From Frondihabitans australicus (GTDB lineage Bacteria > Actinomycetota > Actinomycetes > Actinomycetales > Microbacteriaceae), in NCBI RefSeq assembly GCF_003634555.1, contig NZ_RBKS01000001.1:2976001-3040000 (forward strand): a stretch of 64,000 nt of DNA. Direction: 5' to 3'. Positions 48,372-54,209 of the stretch are shown piece after piece. Each line of letters starts with the position of its first letter. Positions within the stretch are counted from its first letter, which is position 1. Both the position numbers and the translations under genes were made by a program. A model generated the notes under the pieces. It was not told the DNA's origin. It did not search any database and saw nothing but the letters and a program-made list of their open reading frames with translations.

Positions 48372-48857
48372 TCAGGCCGCGAGCAGGGCAGGCACCTGCG
48401 AGAGCGCGCCCGTCATGCCCTCGCGCATGCCCATTCCGAGCACCTTGTCGAGGTCGTCGACGCTGGCGTACGAGGCGACGACCGTCATGCGCGTCGTCGG
48501 CCCGTCGGCCTCGAGCGTGATGACCATGTGCATCGACGGCATCGAGGTGTCGGGTTCGCCGTCGTCGGTCGAGAAGCCGTCCTCGAACTCGTAGCGGTGA
48601 GGCGCGTCGACCGCGATGGTCCGCCACCAGCCGGGCGCCTTCTCGCCGTCCGGCCCGGTCATGTGGTAGCGCGACTCGCCTCCGGGCTCGACCTCGTGGC
48701 GGGTGAACGTCGCCGGCCAGGTCGGCGGACCCCACCAGCGCTCCAGCTGCCGTGGGTCCTCCCACACCTGCCAGACGCGCTCGGGCGGCGCCTCGAAGAC
48801 GGTGACGAAGGTGAGGGTGCGGTCGTCGCGATCGACGGTCGATTCGATGGTGTCCAC
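48372..48857 (-). CDS. SRPBCC/AHSA1-family protein
   Basis: 161 aa. FVTVFEAPPERVWQVWEDPR and LERWWGPPTW are typical of AHSA1/SRPBCC small-molecule-binding proteins; GMREGMTGALSQVPAL forms the C-terminal helix. Located 12 bp after an ArsR regulator in the same direction, a widespread pair in which the ArsR protein controls the SRPBCC protein. Ligand unknown. Confidence 0.92.
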   Translation of the reverse strand: MDTIESTVDRDDRTLTFVTVFEAPPERVWQVWEDPRQLERWWGPPTWPATFTRHEVEPGGESRYHMTGPDGEKAPGWWRTIAVDAPHRYEFEDGFSTDDGEPDTSMPSMHMVITLEADGPTTRMTVVASYASVDDLDKVLGMGMREGMTGALSQVPALLAA

Positions 48858-48869
48858 GGTGATACCCCT

Positions 48870-49214
48870 TCAGTCGGCGACTCGGCTGTCGCGGAGGAGG
48901 TCGGAGATGCGGTCCGCCCGGTCGACCCAGAGCTGCCGGTAGCGCTCGAGCACGCTCTCGGCCTCGCGGATCGTGTCGACGTCGCCGCGCACGATCTGCT
49001 CTCGCCCGCGGCGCTGCTTCCGCACGAGCGCCGCTCTCTCGAGCACCGCGACGTGCTTCTGGATCGCCGCGAAGCTCATGTCGTACCGCCGCGCGAGCGA
49101 CGACACCGACTGCTCGGTCACCAGCACCCGCTCGACGATGTCACGTCGTGTGGCATCGGAGAGCGCTGCGAAGAGGCGATCGAGCCCATCGGAGTCGAAC
49201 CTATCTACAACCAT
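48870..49214 (-). CDS. ArsR-family regulator
   Basis: 114 aa. Winged helix: FAALSDATRRDIVERVL, then SVSSLARRYDMSFAAIQKHV and LVRKQRRGREQ. No metal-ligand Cys, so it is not a metal sensor of the CxC type. The start codon lies inside a 24-bp operator, so autorepression is direct. A minus-strand TAATCT (49223-49228) 8 nt before the ATG gives a leaderless mRNA. Confidence 0.93.
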   Translation of the reverse strand: MVVDRFDSDGLDRLFAALSDATRRDIVERVLVTEQSVSSLARRYDMSFAAIQKHVAVLERAALVRKQRRGREQIVRGDVDTIREAESVLERYRQLWVDRADRISDLLRDSRVAD

Positions 49215-49270: not shown

Positions 49271-50434
49271 TCAGCCCCGCACCGGCGGCGGCCCCACGTA
49301 CCGCGCTGAGGGCCGGATGATCTTGGGGTCGCGCGCCTGCTCGAGCACGTTCGCGGTCCAGCCGAGCACTCTTGCCGCCGCGAACGTCGAGGTGAAGAGC
49401 TCGCGGTCGAGCCCGGCGATCTCCATGACGACGCCGGCGTACCACTCGAGGTTCGTGTGCAGGGCCCTCCCGTGCTTGAGCTGCTCCAGCAGCACCGGGA
49501 TCCTCTCCTCGACCTGGACCGCCAGCTCGACGCGCGGGCCGCCGAAGCGCTGGGCCACGCGCTTGAGCAGGGCCGAACGAGGGTCTTCGGTGCGGTAGAC
49601 CGGGTGACCGAACCCCATGATCCTGCGCCCCGCTTCGAGCTCGCCCGCGATCCACTCGTCGGTCCGCGACGGGTCGCCGATGGCGTCGAGGGTGTCGAGC
49701 GCGCGCGAAGGCGCGCCTCCGTGAAGCGGACCCGAGAGAGCACCCAGGCCGCCGACCAGGCACGCGGCCGCATCGGCCCCCGTCGACGCGATCACGCGCG
49801 ACGTGAAGGTCGACGCGTTGAAGCCGTGGTCGATGGCGGCCACGAGGTAGACCGAGAGTGCATCCACGAACTCCGCTGGCGCCTCGTCGCCGCGGATCAT
49901 CCGCAGATAGTCGGCGACGTAGCCGAGCGCAGGATCCGGCGCCACCGGCTCGAGCCCCGCCGCCAGCCGCGCGAGCGCCGCGATGATCGTCGGCACCACC
50001 GCCGCCAGCCCCACCAGGTCGTCGCGCCGCTCGGCCTCGCTCAGGTCGTAGATGGGCCGGAGCCCCCGCTGGGCCCCCTCGATCGCGAGGGCCGCGCGCA
50101 AGGCCGACAGTGGTGCAGGCCGCGTTCCGTCGGGCGTGGGCTCGACCAGCGACGGCAGGATCCGAGACAGCGCCGCCGACATGCCCCTCCGCGCCGCGAC
50201 CTCCGCCCGGAACGACGCGGACTCGCCCGGCGTCGGGAGCTCGCCGTCGAGCAGGAGCCTCCACACGTCCTCAACCGATCGCGTCTCAGCGAGCGAAGTC
50301 GCCGGGTACTGCCGGTAGTGGTAGAAGCCCTCGTGGCCCCGGACGTCGCTGAGCTCGGTCTCGGTGACGACGACGTTCGCGAGCCCGCGCGGCACGTCGA
50401 TGAGGCGGTCGTCCATCCGCGTCGATGTGGTCAT
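49271..50434 (-). CDS. Citrate synthase (citrate/methylcitrate type)
   Basis: 387 aa. AAIDHGFNASTFTSRVIAST with the catalytic His, LGALSGPLHGGAPSRAL with the second His, and MGFGHPVYRTEDPRSALLK with the CoA region. Condenses oxaloacetate with acetyl- or propionyl-CoA. Divergent from a second citrate synthase-like gene fused to a helix-turn-helix; the promoters share 56 bp. Which acyl-CoA it uses cannot be read from the motifs. Confidence 0.92.
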   Translation of the reverse strand: MTTSTRMDDRLIDVPRGLANVVVTETELSDVRGHEGFYHYRQYPATSLAETRSVEDVWRLLLDGELPTPGESASFRAEVAARRGMSAALSRILPSLVEPTPDGTRPAPLSALRAALAIEGAQRGLRPIYDLSEAERRDDLVGLAAVVPTIIAALARLAAGLEPVAPDPALGYVADYLRMIRGDEAPAEFVDALSVYLVAAIDHGFNASTFTSRVIASTGADAAACLVGGLGALSGPLHGGAPSRALDTLDAIGDPSRTDEWIAGELEAGRRIMGFGHPVYRTEDPRSALLKRVAQRFGGPRVELAVQVEERIPVLLEQLKHGRALHTNLEWYAGVVMEIAGLDRELFTSTFAAARVLGWTANVLEQARDPKIIRPSARYVGPPPVRG

Positions 50435-50470
50435 GGCGACAGCGAAACACCTAGATTGAGAAGAGACAAG

Positions 50471-50489
50471 TCAACGTTGATCGGATCAA
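50471..50489. promoter_or_regulatory. Overlapping palindromes in citrate synthase promoter
   Basis: TCAACGTTGA (50471-50480, perfect) and TTGATCGGATCAA (50477-50489, perfect odd palindrome) overlap by 4 bp and end 1 bp before the ATG of the HTH-citrate synthase. The minus-strand TTGACT inside may be the -35 of the other citrate synthase gene. Confidence 0.65.
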
Positions 50490-50490
50490 T

Positions 50491-51783
50491 ATGACGGCGC
50501 AACGACCGGGCACCCCTCGGCTCACGACTGCCCAGGCGGCCGCCCGGCTCGGCGTCAAGCCGCAGACGCTGTACGCCTACGTCTCGCGCGGCGTCATCTC
50601 GAGCGAGCGGGGCGACGAGGGCTCGACGTTCGACGCCCTCGAGGTCGAGGCGCTGTCCGACTCCCGGGGCGCCCGGGCCCGGCGCGCGTCGGCCGTCGCC
50701 GGGTCGACGACACGGGGGCAGGAGCCCGCACACCGCCCGGCAGAACCGGGCCGGCCCATGATGGTCATCGACAGCCCGATCACTCTCCTCACCGGCGACG
50801 ACCTGTACTTCCGGGGGCGCCGCGCGACCGACCTCGCCCGGGAGGGCGGCTTCGAGCGCGCGATCGAGATCCTCTGGCAGACGGGCGCCGATCCTGCGCA
50901 CCTCACGCCCGACCGCCAGGTCGTCTCGCGTGCCCGTGCGGCCGGGGACCTGCTCGGACCCTCGGCCCGCCTGATCGATCGGCTCGCCCTCACGGTGCAG
51001 ATCGCCGCCTCGTACGACCCGTTCCGCGACGACCTCGACCCCGTGGCGGTCTTCGCCGCGGCGCGGCGCCTTCTGGCCGAGCTCGTGGCGGCTCTTCCGC
51101 TGCGCGGCGAGCCGGCGGCCCCGGAGGCCCCGCTCGCGCATCACCTCTGGCCACGACTGTCGGCGGACGCACCGTCGGGCGACGAGCTGCGGCTGCTCGA
51201 CGGCGCTCTGATCCTGATGATGGATCACGACCTCGCCACGTCGACACTGGCGGCTCGCGCCGCCGCCTCGGCCCGCGCGAACCCCTACGCCTCCCTCTCG
51301 GCCGCCCTCGGCGCGGTCGACAGCGCGCAGCACGGCGCAGCCAGCACGGCCGCGGTGAGCCTGCTGCGCGAGAGCCTCGAGTCGGGCGGCCCCGAGCGCG
51401 CCCTCGCCGCGCGCATCCGCGCCGACCGCGGGCTCCCCGGCTTCGGCCACGTGATCTACCGCGAACGCGACCCGAGAGCCGAGTTCGTCTTCGAGGCGCT
51501 CGGCAGGCTGCCGCGGTTCCGGGTGGCGGCTGCGGGCGCCGCGCGGCTCTCGGCGATCGTCCGGTCGCGACTGCCGCGGCCGGCGAACGTCGATCTCGCT
51601 CTGGCGGCCTTCGCCGTCGGCGGAGGGTTCCCGGACGACGCCGGCCAGGTGATCTTCGCCGTCGCGCGCACGGCCGGCTGGATCGCGCACGTCGTCGACG
51701 AGTACGCCCAGGTGCCGCTGAGGATGCGGCCCGAGTCGAGGTACGTGGGACCGGCGCCGTCTCACGATCCTGCGACCGCATGA
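50491..51783 (+). CDS. Citrate synthase with N-terminal helix-turn-helix domain
   Basis: 430 aa. Residues 10-45 (LTTAQAAARLGVKPQTLYAY then VSRGVISSER) form a MerR/excisionase-like DNA-binding helix-turn-helix, followed by an 80-residue Arg/Ala linker and a citrate synthase body: LILMMDHDLATSTLAARAAA with the active His, SAALGAVDSAQHGAAS (altered from the usual GPLHGGA) and LPGFGHVIYRERDPRAEF. The fold is intact but key segments differ from the neighbour, so it may be a low-activity enzyme acting as a citrate/acetyl-CoA-responsive regulator. Two palindromes lie in the shared promoter. Confidence 0.87.
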   Translation: MTAQRPGTPRLTTAQAAARLGVKPQTLYAYVSRGVISSERGDEGSTFDALEVEALSDSRGARARRASAVAGSTTRGQEPAHRPAEPGRPMMVIDSPITLLTGDDLYFRGRRATDLAREGGFERAIEILWQTGADPAHLTPDRQVVSRARAAGDLLGPSARLIDRLALTVQIAASYDPFRDDLDPVAVFAAARRLLAELVAALPLRGEPAAPEAPLAHHLWPRLSADAPSGDELRLLDGALILMMDHDLATSTLAARAAASARANPYASLSAALGAVDSAQHGAASTAAVSLLRESLESGGPERALAARIRADRGLPGFGHVIYRERDPRAEFVFEALGRLPRFRVAAAGAARLSAIVRSRLPRPANVDLALAAFAVGGGFPDDAGQVIFAVARTAGWIAHVVDEYAQVPLRMRPESRYVGPAPSHDPATA

Positions 51784-51833: not shown

Positions 51834-53282
51834 ATGACCTCAGCCTCACCAACCCGCACCGCGCCCGAGGGCGCGTTCGACCGGCGCCTGCTCTCGCCGA
51901 TGATGCTCGGGTCGATCCTCAACCCGGTCAACTCGTCGATCATCGCGGTCGCGCTCGTGCCGATCGCCACGAGCTTCGGGGCCCCGGCCTCGCAGACCGC
52001 CTGGCTCATCTCGGCCCTCTACCTCGCGACGGCCATCGGCCAGCCGCTCGTCGGCCGCCTCGTCGACACGTTCGGGCCGCGACGGCTTCTCGTGGCCGGG
52101 GCCGTGCTGACCGGCATCGCGGGCGTGCTCGGCGTTCTCGCGCCGAACATCGGCGTGCTCATCGCCGCGCGCGTGATCCTCGGATTCGGCACCTGCGCCG
52201 GCTACCCGGCCTCCATGAGCCTCATCCGCAGCGAGGCGAACCGCACCGGCATCGCGAGCCCGGCCGGCGTGCTCACCGCCCTGGCCGTGACGACCCAGAC
52301 GATCGCCGTCATCGGCCCCACCCTCGGCGGCCTCCTCATCGGCGTCGGCGGCTGGCGCGCCACGTTCGCCGTCAACATCCCCCTCGCCGTCGCGAGCCTC
52401 GTGCTCGCCCTCCTGTTCGTGCCGCGTGCGACCTCCCTCGAGGCCTCCGACGGGGCGCAGGAGCAGGGCCACACCCCCTCCCTGAGACTCGACTACCCCG
52501 GCATCCTGCTCTTCGCCGCCACGCTCGTCGCTCTCCTGCTGTTCCTCATGAACGTCGGCCTCGCGTGGTCGCCGCTGCTGCTCGTGGCGGCCGCCGCCGG
52601 CACAGGATTCACCCTGCGCGAGCTCCGCACCGCCGACCCGTTCATCGACGTGCGGGTCTTCGCGGGCAACGCGCCGCTGCTCGTGACCTACGCCCGCGGG
52701 TTCCTCGCCGCCACCGTGAGCTACTGCTTCCTCTACGGCTTCACCCAGTGGCTGGAGGACGGCCGCGGGCTCGAGCCCTCCGAGGCCGGCCTCCTCCTGC
52801 TGCCGACCTTCGCGGTCGGGATCCTGGTGTCGACGCTGACCGGGCGTCGCCCCGAGATCCGCGGCAAGCTGCTCGTCGGCGCCTGCGTGCAGGTCGTCAT
52901 GTGCGCCCTCATGCTGCTCGTCCACGCCCAGGCGGCCATTCCCTTCCTCGTCGTCATCGCGCTCATCACCGGCGTGCCCCAGGGCCTCAACAACCTCGCG
53001 GTGCAGAACGCGCTCTACTACCAGGCCGACCCGGCGCGCATCGGGGCGTCGTCCGGGCTCCTGCGCACCTTCATGTACCTCGGGGCGATCGCGGCCTCCA
53101 GCGCCAGCGGGGCCTTCTTCGGCGCCCGCGCCACGACCGGAGGCCTGCACGAGCTCGCCTGGTTCATGCTCGGCGCCGCGGTGATCTTCGTGGCGATCAC
53201 CGTGGCGGACCGATCGCTCGGGCGGATCAGCCGCGAGAACCGGCGGAAGGCCGAAGCGGCGAAGGCGGGCGCCGCGGCCTGA
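51834..53282 (+). CDS. MFS multidrug-type transporter
   Basis: 482 aa with about 14 hydrophobic segments. PVNSSIIAVALVPIATSF, QTAWLISALYLATAIGQPLV and GRLVDTFGPRRLLVAGAV are EmrB/QacA-type motifs. Proton-driven export of hydrophobic compounds. Follows the HTH-citrate synthase in the same direction, but has its own palindrome-covered promoter. No adjacent TetR/MarR gene. Confidence 0.92.
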   Translation: MTSASPTRTAPEGAFDRRLLSPMMLGSILNPVNSSIIAVALVPIATSFGAPASQTAWLISALYLATAIGQPLVGRLVDTFGPRRLLVAGAVLTGIAGVLGVLAPNIGVLIAARVILGFGTCAGYPASMSLIRSEANRTGIASPAGVLTALAVTTQTIAVIGPTLGGLLIGVGGWRATFAVNIPLAVASLVLALLFVPRATSLEASDGAQEQGHTPSLRLDYPGILLFAATLVALLLFLMNVGLAWSPLLLVAAAAGTGFTLRELRTADPFIDVRVFAGNAPLLVTYARGFLAATVSYCFLYGFTQWLEDGRGLEPSEAGLLLLPTFAVGILVSTLTGRRPEIRGKLLVGACVQVVMCALMLLVHAQAAIPFLVVIALITGVPQGLNNLAVQNALYYQADPARIGASSGLLRTFMYLGAIAASSASGAFFGARATTGGLHELAWFMLGAAVIFVAITVADRSLGRISRENRRKAEAAKAGAAA

Positions 53283-53363
53283 GGGGCCAGGGGCTCGTCT
53301 GCGCGACGGGCCGGCCCCGCGAACGGGGACCACCCGATTCGAACCCCGGCGCACTAGGCTGTC

Positions 53364-53389
53364 ACTGGTCATGTCCACATGTGACCAGG
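53364..53389. promoter_or_regulatory. dre-like site before GntR/UTRA regulator
   Basis: ACTGGTCATGT (53364-53374) and the opposing ACATGTGACCAG form an inverted repeat immediately after the TAGGCT -10 (53355-53360), that is, at the transcription start. Resembles the DasR element ACTGGTCTAGACCACT. Implies autorepression. Confidence 0.6.
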
Positions 53390-53426
53390 CGACGATCTCG
53401 CGTCGCCAGCCAGGTCGGAGGTTCCC

Positions 53427-54209
53427 GTGCCCGCCAAGCAGACGCCAGCGCCACTCGACGCGCCCGCGCCGGGCATCGTGCTGGGCGCGGTGCCGAAGCA
53501 CGAGCAGCTGCGGCGGATCCTGCGCGACCTCGCTCTCGACCGGCTGCAGCCCGGCAGCGCGATCCCGTCCGAACGACAGCTGATCGCCGACTACGGCGTG
53601 AGCCGGATCACCGTGCGCGAGGCCGTGGGCCAGCTCGTGAACGAGGGGATCCTCACCAGGGTCCGCGGCAAGGGCACGTTCGTCGCGCATCGCGCCGTGC
53701 AGTCGACCCTGCACCTCGCCTCGTTCACACAGGAGATGGCGTCGCTCGGCCACGTGCCGACGACAGTCGTCCTCGTCCGCGAGGAGGCCCGGCTTCCGGC
53801 CGACACCGCTGCGGCTCTGGGCCTGGCACCCGACGACACCGGGTTCCACGTGAAACGACTTCGCCTCGCCGACGGCGCACCGGTCTCGATCGACGACGCC
53901 TGGTTCGCGCGGGCGCCCTACCCGGGGCTCCTCGACCACGACCTGTCGAAGTCGATCTACGCGCTGGCCGCCGAGCGCTACGACGCACCGATCGTGCGGG
54001 CGCGACAGACCGTGGCCGCCGAGCCCGCGCCCGACGACGTGGCGACGCTGCTCGGCACGAAGACGTCGGCGCCGGTGCTCGTCTTCGACCGCGTCTCGTA
54101 CGCCGCAGCAGGGCCCGTCGAGCACACGCGCAGCTGGTACCGGAGCGACCGCTATCGGGTGCAGATGGAGGTCTCCGCGCGCGAAGAGCCCGCTCTGCGG
54201 GGTGCGTAA
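53427..54209 (+). CDS. GntR/HutC-family (UTRA) regulator, DasR-like
   Basis: 260 aa. Winged helix LRRILRDLALDRLQPGSAIP and SERQLIADYGVSRITVREAV, then a UTRA ligand domain (FTQEMASLGHVPTTVV, FHVKRLRLADGAPVSIDDAW, FDRVSYAAAGPVEHTRSWYR). Architecture and neighbourhood match DasR/NagR proteins that bind amino-sugar phosphates and control GlcNAc PTS genes. GTG 53427 follows GGAGG. Next to EIIA, EIIB and EIIC with dre-like sites. Confidence 0.9.
   Translation: MPAKQTPAPLDAPAPGIVLGAVPKHEQLRRILRDLALDRLQPGSAIPSERQLIADYGVSRITVREAVGQLVNEGILTRVRGKGTFVAHRAVQSTLHLASFTQEMASLGHVPTTVVLVREEARLPADTAAALGLAPDDTGFHVKRLRLADGAPVSIDDAWFARAPYPGLLDHDLSKSIYALAAERYDAPIVRARQTVAAEPAPDDVATLLGTKTSAPVLVFDRVSYAAAGPVEHTRSWYRSDRYRVQMEVSAREEPALRGA

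Follow-up and report, generated by a model that had tools for sequence, protein, structure and literature searches.

Relation to Described Systems

PutA, BirA, NadR and MocR/GabR combine a DNA-binding domain with the fold of a metabolic enzyme that serves as sensor, and none of them is known to be built on citrate synthase (CS). Here we describe a gene of Frondihabitans australicus whose product likewise combines the two, carrying a MerR/BldC-like winged helix-turn-helix (HTH) in front of a diverged CS body. It lies in a stretch of 64,000 nucleotides (assembly GCF_003634555.1, contig NZ_RBKS01000001.1, positions 2,976,001 to 3,040,000), in the following called the window, and is divergent to a gene for a CitA-type CS. 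A preliminary description of the window had proposed an enzyme-derived transcription factor that acts on the divergent CS gene. This proposal is strongly supported by comparative evidence: the operator and the divergent pairing are conserved, operator and fusion gene occur together, and the operator is retained with other partner enzymes. The fusion protein very probably binds DNA and regulates the enzyme encoded next to it.

By sequence profile, the HTH and wing were most similar to BldC (PDB 6ama, 6amk) of the MerR superfamily (6amk, E-value 0.0012), which was also among the best matches by fold. BldC is a lone DNA-binding domain, whereas the HTH described here heads a CS body and its core site is palindromic; the same-direction half-sites found 21 and 40 bp from this core site are again BldC-like. 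Operators of the MerR family are located between the -35 and -10 regions, which are separated by a long spacer. The gene arrangement resembles that of CitR and CitA in Bacillus subtilis, where the regulator gene is divergent to the gene for a minor, CitA-type CS, and the solved chain nearest to the partner CS of the window is a B. subtilis citrate synthase (2c6x). CitR, however, is a LysR-type regulator unrelated to CS and differs in this respect from the fusion protein.

In Streptomyces coelicolor, SCO5831 (citA3) and SCO5832 (citA4) are likewise a pair of citrate synthase-like genes with a shared intergenic region. SCO5831 most likely is the counterpart of the fusion protein, because the order of fusion gene, sucrase/ferredoxin-like gene and sensor kinase gene at one of the loci analyzed here (L104) fits the order SCO5831, SCO5830, SCO5829 in the excerpt of the corresponding report (PMC9739823). 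Both sco5831 and sco5832 were called putative citrate synthases (PMC12323332), and in the excerpts of four reports (PMC12323332, PMC9739823, PMC8981147, PMC7324645) SCO5831 is referred to as citrate synthase or citrate synthase-like protein and never as a regulator. Two of these excerpts (PMC8981147, PMC12323332) discuss the several "citrate synthase" genes of Streptomyces in terms of a redundancy that serves regulatory diversity. Among the papers listed in searches of open-licence PMC texts, none treated the fusion protein or SCO5831 as a regulator. A probable CS-built transcription factor that is widespread in actinobacteria has apparently gone unnoticed in the literature searched.

The Fusion Protein and the Divergent Citrate Synthase

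The genes and protein parts of the window considered here are the following.

49271..50434, minus strand: divergent CitA-type CS, 387 amino acids, presumed target gene (open reading frame, Pfam/NCBIfam, nearest solved chain 2c6x)
50491..51783, plus strand: fusion gene, MerR/BldC-like winged HTH and diverged CS body, 430 amino acids (open reading frame list, Pfam, structure model)
50518..50703, plus strand: winged HTH, residues ~10-71, with strand 10-12, helices 13-20 and 24-32, strands 38-41 and 44-48, and helix 49-71 (structure models)
50704..50760, plus strand: linker, residues 72-90, mostly of low confidence (predicted local distance difference test, pLDDT, below 50 at 71-88; structure model)
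50761..51753, plus strand: CS body, residues 91-421, with pocket residues H246, H281, H320, R329, D368, R393 and R413

The start codons of the two genes are 56 bp apart. Both open reading frames were as given in the preliminary description, and the domains assigned there, an HTH-CS fusion beside a divergent CS, were matched by profile searches. Pfam Citrate_synt (PF00285; cut-off 27) scored 161.7 bits with the fusion protein and 331.4 bits with the divergent CS. The fusion body has the CS fold. The cut-offs of the NCBIfam citrate synthase models were not reached by the fusion protein (PRK12350.1, 123 versus 332 bits; TIGR01800.1, 120 versus 421 bits). With the whole protein, HTH_17/MerR scored 25.2 bits, just below the Pfam cut-off of 27, and with the first 70 residues alone 28.4 bits, above it; all 16 members of the fusion family examined matched HTH_17 at an E-value of ≤ 0.01. 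A separate model of the N-terminal part showed a winged-helix fold with RacA, BldC and SoxR as fold neighbours. The Foldseek matches of the HTH were modest by E-value, the best being 0.0012 and none ≤ 0.001.

Distribution of the Fusion Gene and Its Partner

Among 60 genomes of relatives, six others possessed a close relative of the fusion gene, each with a divergent CS gene; in one of them (G001) the reading frame of the fusion gene is broken near its end, and another (G049) holds a second, diverged copy that has no divergent CS gene. A scan of named genomes gave at least 574 relatives, of which the best 80 were kept; these were all actinobacterial. These best-80 loci were mostly from Streptomyces and also from Subtercola, Microbacterium, Actinoplanes, Kitasatospora and one Acidimicrobiales metagenome-assembled genome. 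A profile of the N-terminal domain (E-value 1e-9) matched 64 genomes, from 17 genera, in a class-wide draw that comprised 394 genomes and 138 genera; in a phylum-wide draw of 396 genomes and 237 genera, it matched 45 genomes from 20 genera. Spread by plasmids was rejected as an explanation, with a single plasmid match at an E-value of ≤ 1e-20 (Embleya, 36% identity). A piece with 42% identity to the C-terminal part of the fusion protein and an internal stop (G031:C1:2678496-2678762) is likely the remnant of a lost copy in the same family.

For the analysis of partners and operators we used 151 loci (the window, L006-L011, L035-L114 and L123-L186), 147 of them distinct. In these, the fusion gene was accompanied by a full-length divergent CS gene in 128 cases, a partial CS gene in five, a tandem CS gene in one, a divergent gene for an HMGL-type enzyme in four and none of these in nine. 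A further 18 loci were taken from the 45 genomes of the phylum-wide draw; 14 of them had a CS gene on the opposite strand and two (L225, L226) a gene for an HMGL-type enzyme. These loci are related to each other and come mostly from Streptomyces, so that the locus counts do not represent independent events.

A Conserved Operator in the Shared Promoter Region

Two overlapping palindromes are found in the intergenic region of the window: positions 50471-50480 read TCAACGTTGA and positions 50477-50489 read TTGATCGGATCAA, and neither occurs elsewhere in the 64 kb. The resulting operator directly abuts the start codon of the fusion gene.

50470..50489, no strand assigned: operator GTCAACGTTGATCGGATCAA with three TTGAY half-sites (window sequence and cross-locus conservation)
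50469..50474, minus strand: putative -35 region (TTGACT) of the divergent CS gene within the left arm of the operator (sequence; promoter scan without match)

Across the loci, the operator was defined by the pattern GTCAAYRTTGAY-N-RTCAA, either with a variable spacer of 2 to 8 before the third half-site or in a form with a fixed spacer of 3. The full site with variable spacer preceded the fusion gene in 122 of the 147 distinct loci; among the 18 phylum-draw loci it was present in 12, and among 8,250 shuffled sequences in none. The spacer was 3 in 101 of the 134 full-site loci and 4 to 7 in the remainder. All 13 fixed operator positions were matched in 75 of 87 loci and at least 12 in 80 of 87, while among 8,700 shuffles none matched 13 and two matched 12. 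In an alignment of 80 sites anchored on the operator, GTCAA, TTGA and TCAA were nearly invariant and the downstream sequence was near random. The minimal form TTGAY-N2-5-RTCAA occurred in 127 of the 128 loci with a divergent CS gene, and in 30 of 14,700 shuffles made over all loci. None of the 25 control loci, which contain other citrate synthase genes, had the full operator.

The operator is also specific for genomes with the fusion gene. Each of seven fusion-bearing genomes, including that of the window (G000), contained one intergenic site with at most one mismatch; G000 had one extra match, by eye within the coding sequence of an unrelated protein. The operator was missing genome-wide, at the same stringency, in all seven fusion-less relatives. 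Of 26 further fusion-bearing genomes, 23 had the spacer-3 site, 22 of these exactly once. The three others were G168 and G076, which lack both partner and site, and G209, which has a longer spacer. The spacer-3 operator was found in none of 26 fusion-less genomes, two of which (G113, G145) belong to family f37, the family of the Streptomyces loci. Chance palindromes were ruled out by the shuffle counts, the specificity for fusion-bearing genomes and the absence from fusion-less ones. A large regulon was likewise rejected, as far as the spacer-3 form is concerned, since this pattern was single in 22 of the 23 genomes having it and in six of the seven genomes of the first set. With the exceptions named below, a dedicated DNA site, as expected for an enzyme-derived transcription factor, is conserved alongside the fusion gene.

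According to the preliminary description, the palindromes lie over the -35 region of the CS gene. This held for most full-site loci, where the left arm reads TTGACA on the CS strand, a perfect -35 hexamer (68 of the 73 full-site loci of the best-80 set and 30 of the 47 others). In the window, the hexamer at this position is only TTGACT, and no sigma-70-type pair passed a promoter scan. Further TTGAY half-sites of the same direction, located 21 and 40 bp from the core across the CS promoter, were present in 58 and 54 of the 73 best-80-set loci, and outside this set in only 16 and 9 of 47 loci. In part of the loci, such a half-site would fall into the spacer between the -35 and -10 regions of the predicted CS promoter.

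This promoter geometry also bears on the possibility that the fusion protein acts as a MerR-style activator of the CS gene and not as a repressor. The MerR-type HTH, the weak promoter hexamers of the window and the half-site at -21 from the core, which where present would lie between the -35 and -10 regions, would fit an activator. The main operator, however, is positioned on the -35 region itself and, in the window, directly before the start codon of the fusion gene, and the further half-sites, where present, extend towards the CS start, as expected for repression. We therefore regard an activator as rather unlikely.

As a separate observation, GATACGGTG was seen by eye a few bases upstream of the ATG of many Streptomyces fusion genes (e.g., L040), a pattern as for a leaderless transcript with TACGGT as putative -10 region.

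The Operator at Loci With Other Partners

Some loci allowed us to follow the operator when the divergent partner is a different enzyme. All four HMGL-type loci of the main set (L163, L179, L180, L181) kept the full site, with a longer spacer; of the two further ones, L225 kept it and L226 did not, giving five of six overall. The HMGL-type partner appears to be a synthase of the homocitrate, isopropylmalate or Re-citrate kind; for the two partners tested, the best NCBIfam match was homocitrate synthase (248 and 230 bits, below the cut-off of 462.9). In Actinoplanes, the partner of L046 belongs to another CS clade and the operator is intact. All five loci with a partial CS gene retained the site. 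In G263 (L229, L230; G263:C53), only an N-terminal CS piece is found beside the fusion gene, and a full CS gene with its own complete operator copy stands at a distance of 20 kb, close to a frame that by eye resembles an integrase gene; this distant CS gene was perhaps brought in by an integrating element.

Of the nine loci without such a partner, only L055, L056 and L186 possessed a full site. The lack of a full site in the other six would fit a site serving mainly the promoter of the partner and makes autoregulation less sure. One of these loci, L182 (G049:C2:111300-116300), carries a second, more diverged fusion gene that has no divergent CS gene and adjoins an oxidoreductase-like gene (named by eye). 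Its product lacks the equivalents of the catalytic residues His222 and Asp317, and is possibly a regulator of another pathway.

Exceptions and Alternative Regulators

Several observations weigh against a regulator acting through this site. The six partner-less loci that contain the fusion gene and lack the full site (L049, where the site is damaged, L114, L149, L156, L182 and L185) are among them, and at these loci the fusion protein may have another role. A family group (L124, L126-L131, L133, L135, L141, L148, L150) is mostly without the left arm and kept only TTGAY-N-RTCAA, and the full pattern is missing in the phylum-draw loci L214, L217, L219, L226, L227 and L228. Actinoplanes L107 has the same kind of partner as L046, a divergent CS, and no site. 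The weak hexamers and the negative promoter scan of the window also have to be counted here, as does the fact that no experiment addressing the fusion protein as a regulator, by binding or by expression, came up among the open-licence PMC papers listed.

A further point of this kind is that another regulator binds in the same region of S. coelicolor. According to the excerpt of one report, the DNA between sco5831 and sco5832 is a binding region of MtrA, and an mtrA mutant expressed the two genes more strongly at late times (PMC12323332), so part of the conservation could serve MtrA. GlnR was described, again in an excerpt, to control citA and citA4 in Saccharopolyspora erythraea (PMC10704036). 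The site might thus be owned by MtrA, GlnR or a similar protein and the HTH of the fusion protein serve another role, e.g., in assembly; the absence of the full site from six of nine partner-less loci despite the presence of the fusion gene would agree with this. Against this, the spacer-3 operator was found in none of 26 fusion-less genomes (G113 and G145 of f37 included). With 2 to 8 mismatches over the 80 best-set loci, the MtrA site as printed in the excerpt had its best match, in 61 of them, in a stretch beginning 33 bp ahead of the operator. Moreover, the fusion gene is accompanied by the operator also at loci with a different kind of partner enzyme. Ownership by another regulator is therefore very improbable.

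Residues of the Citrate Synthase Pocket and Evolution of the Fusion Protein

The pocket was compared in 142 full-length fusion proteins, with residues named by the numbering of Thermoplasma citrate synthase. The equivalents of His187, Arg271 and Arg344 were invariant (142 of 142) and Arg356 was kept in 140. The catalytic triad equivalents were found in 141 (His222), 135 (His262) and 141 (Asp317) proteins, and correspond to H281, H320 and D368 in the window protein. A changed active-site context had been noted before. The altered motifs DHDLATST and SAQHGAAS are both present, but the window protein retains the full His/His/Asp triad and every oxaloacetate-binding residue. The partner, which had been regarded as the normal copy, is in fact the protein with Glu at the position of the catalytic Asp, in the window and in all 80 partners compared; according to the alignment the same holds true for 2c6x. 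The Asn of the NAST motif is replaced by Ala in 141 of 142 fusion proteins, compared to Asn in 80 of 80 partners.

The complete triad is found in 134 of 142 fusion proteins, which speaks against a purely regulatory protein, as catalysis may be kept as well. The fusion protein could thus be a bifunctional trigger enzyme with a PutA-like logic, i.e., an active CS that also binds the operator and reports flux directly by the occupancy of its active site during turnover. The triad of the window protein, its conservation across the family and the conservation of the other oxaloacetate ligands (140-142 of 142) fit this idea. It is countered by the exchange in the NAST motif, by the faster change of the fusion proteins described below, by the dedicated enzyme encoded next to the fusion gene and by natural variants without His262. 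In six fusion proteins with a divergent CS gene (L008, L048, L159, L162, L171, L172), His262 is replaced by Gln, Met, Ala or Ile; five of these pairs have the full site and L048 has its inner part. Catalysis is thus not needed for whatever keeps the pair. We consider a trigger enzyme possible but doubtful. The DNA site and the natural loss of His262 in these six pairs also make it unlikely that the protein would be a fully active enzyme whose HTH is only for assembly.

In a tree of 28 fusion proteins, 22 partners and 25 other citrate synthases, which included several long-branch rows, the fusion proteins formed one clade (100/100). A recent duplication of the partner CS was ruled out by this tree. 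An enzyme copy that is broken and on its way out was rejected for most members, the pocket residues being near-invariant and the clade well supported. Judged by tree path lengths for six pairs picked by us, the amount of change in the fusion proteins was 1.7-2.5 times that in their partners, and over 11 genomes the mean identity was 0.46 for the fusion bodies and 0.55 for the partners. The best-conserved part of the fusion protein is the recognition segment of the HTH, with a mean pairwise identity of 0.80 versus 0.46 for the CS body among 16 representatives. A conserved pocket and recognition segment together with a faster change of the body point to a regulator that has a binding pocket and whose DNA target is fixed, not to an isozyme.

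Proposed Mechanism

With good confidence we propose that the fusion protein is an autoregulated, substrate-sensing repressor of the CS gene that is itself derived from a CS. Its N-terminal MerR/BldC-type winged HTH would bind the 20-bp operator in the shared promoter. The operator lies over the -35 region of the CS gene and touches the start codon of the fusion gene, so occupancy should block both promoters. The bound protein would most likely repress the CS gene and its own gene, and taking these positions together it is probably a repressor. Autoregulation is the weaker part of this proposal, because the site is often lost where the partner is gone.

The CS body is expected to dimerize and to act as the sensor. 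The sensing of oxaloacetate, acetyl-CoA or citrate suggested in the preliminary description is plausible for the putative sensor in view of four pocket residues that 140-142 of 142 fusion proteins have kept, and we moderately favour a ligand bound in the CS pocket. Citrate synthases close upon binding of oxaloacetate. Oxaloacetate, with or without acetyl-CoA, would be expected to close the two domains of the fusion body as it does in the enzyme, shift the spacing of the HTHs and thereby release the promoter. Since the two HTHs would be displaced when the domains of a dimeric body close, a repressor that is released by oxaloacetate alone or together with acetyl-CoA is the favoured form. The outcome would be a CS level that rises as the substrate of the enzyme accumulates.

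Neighbouring Genes

In Streptomyces, a gene downstream of the fusion gene (L104:6271-7989) encodes a sensor kinase that combines sCache_3_2 and SPOB_a domains, as do citrate/dicarboxylate sensors. In the window, an ArsR-like HTH gene (below the Pfam cut-offs) adjoins an AHSA1-domain gene at 48375-49214, and the fusion gene is followed by a gene for a transporter of the major facilitator superfamily and a gene for a HutC-like GntR/UTRA regulator (51834-54209).

Implications

There is about an even chance that the fusion proteins represent a phylum-wide class of factors with the CS fold as sensor, in which closure by oxaloacetate or acetyl-CoA sets DNA binding, whichever enzyme is controlled (CitA-type CS, other CS or HMGL-type). 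If one "citrate synthase" indeed regulates another, annotations will need changing, probably including that of SCO5831/citA3. The tricarboxylic acid (TCA) cycle would then have, at its entry, a sensor that responds directly to a substrate, which a single protein and a single DNA site of 20 bp suffice to test, and the fusion protein is a candidate for a natural biosensor of oxaloacetate or acetyl-CoA. To gauge the entry into the TCA cycle, the cell would make use of a copy of the very enzyme that catalyses this step.

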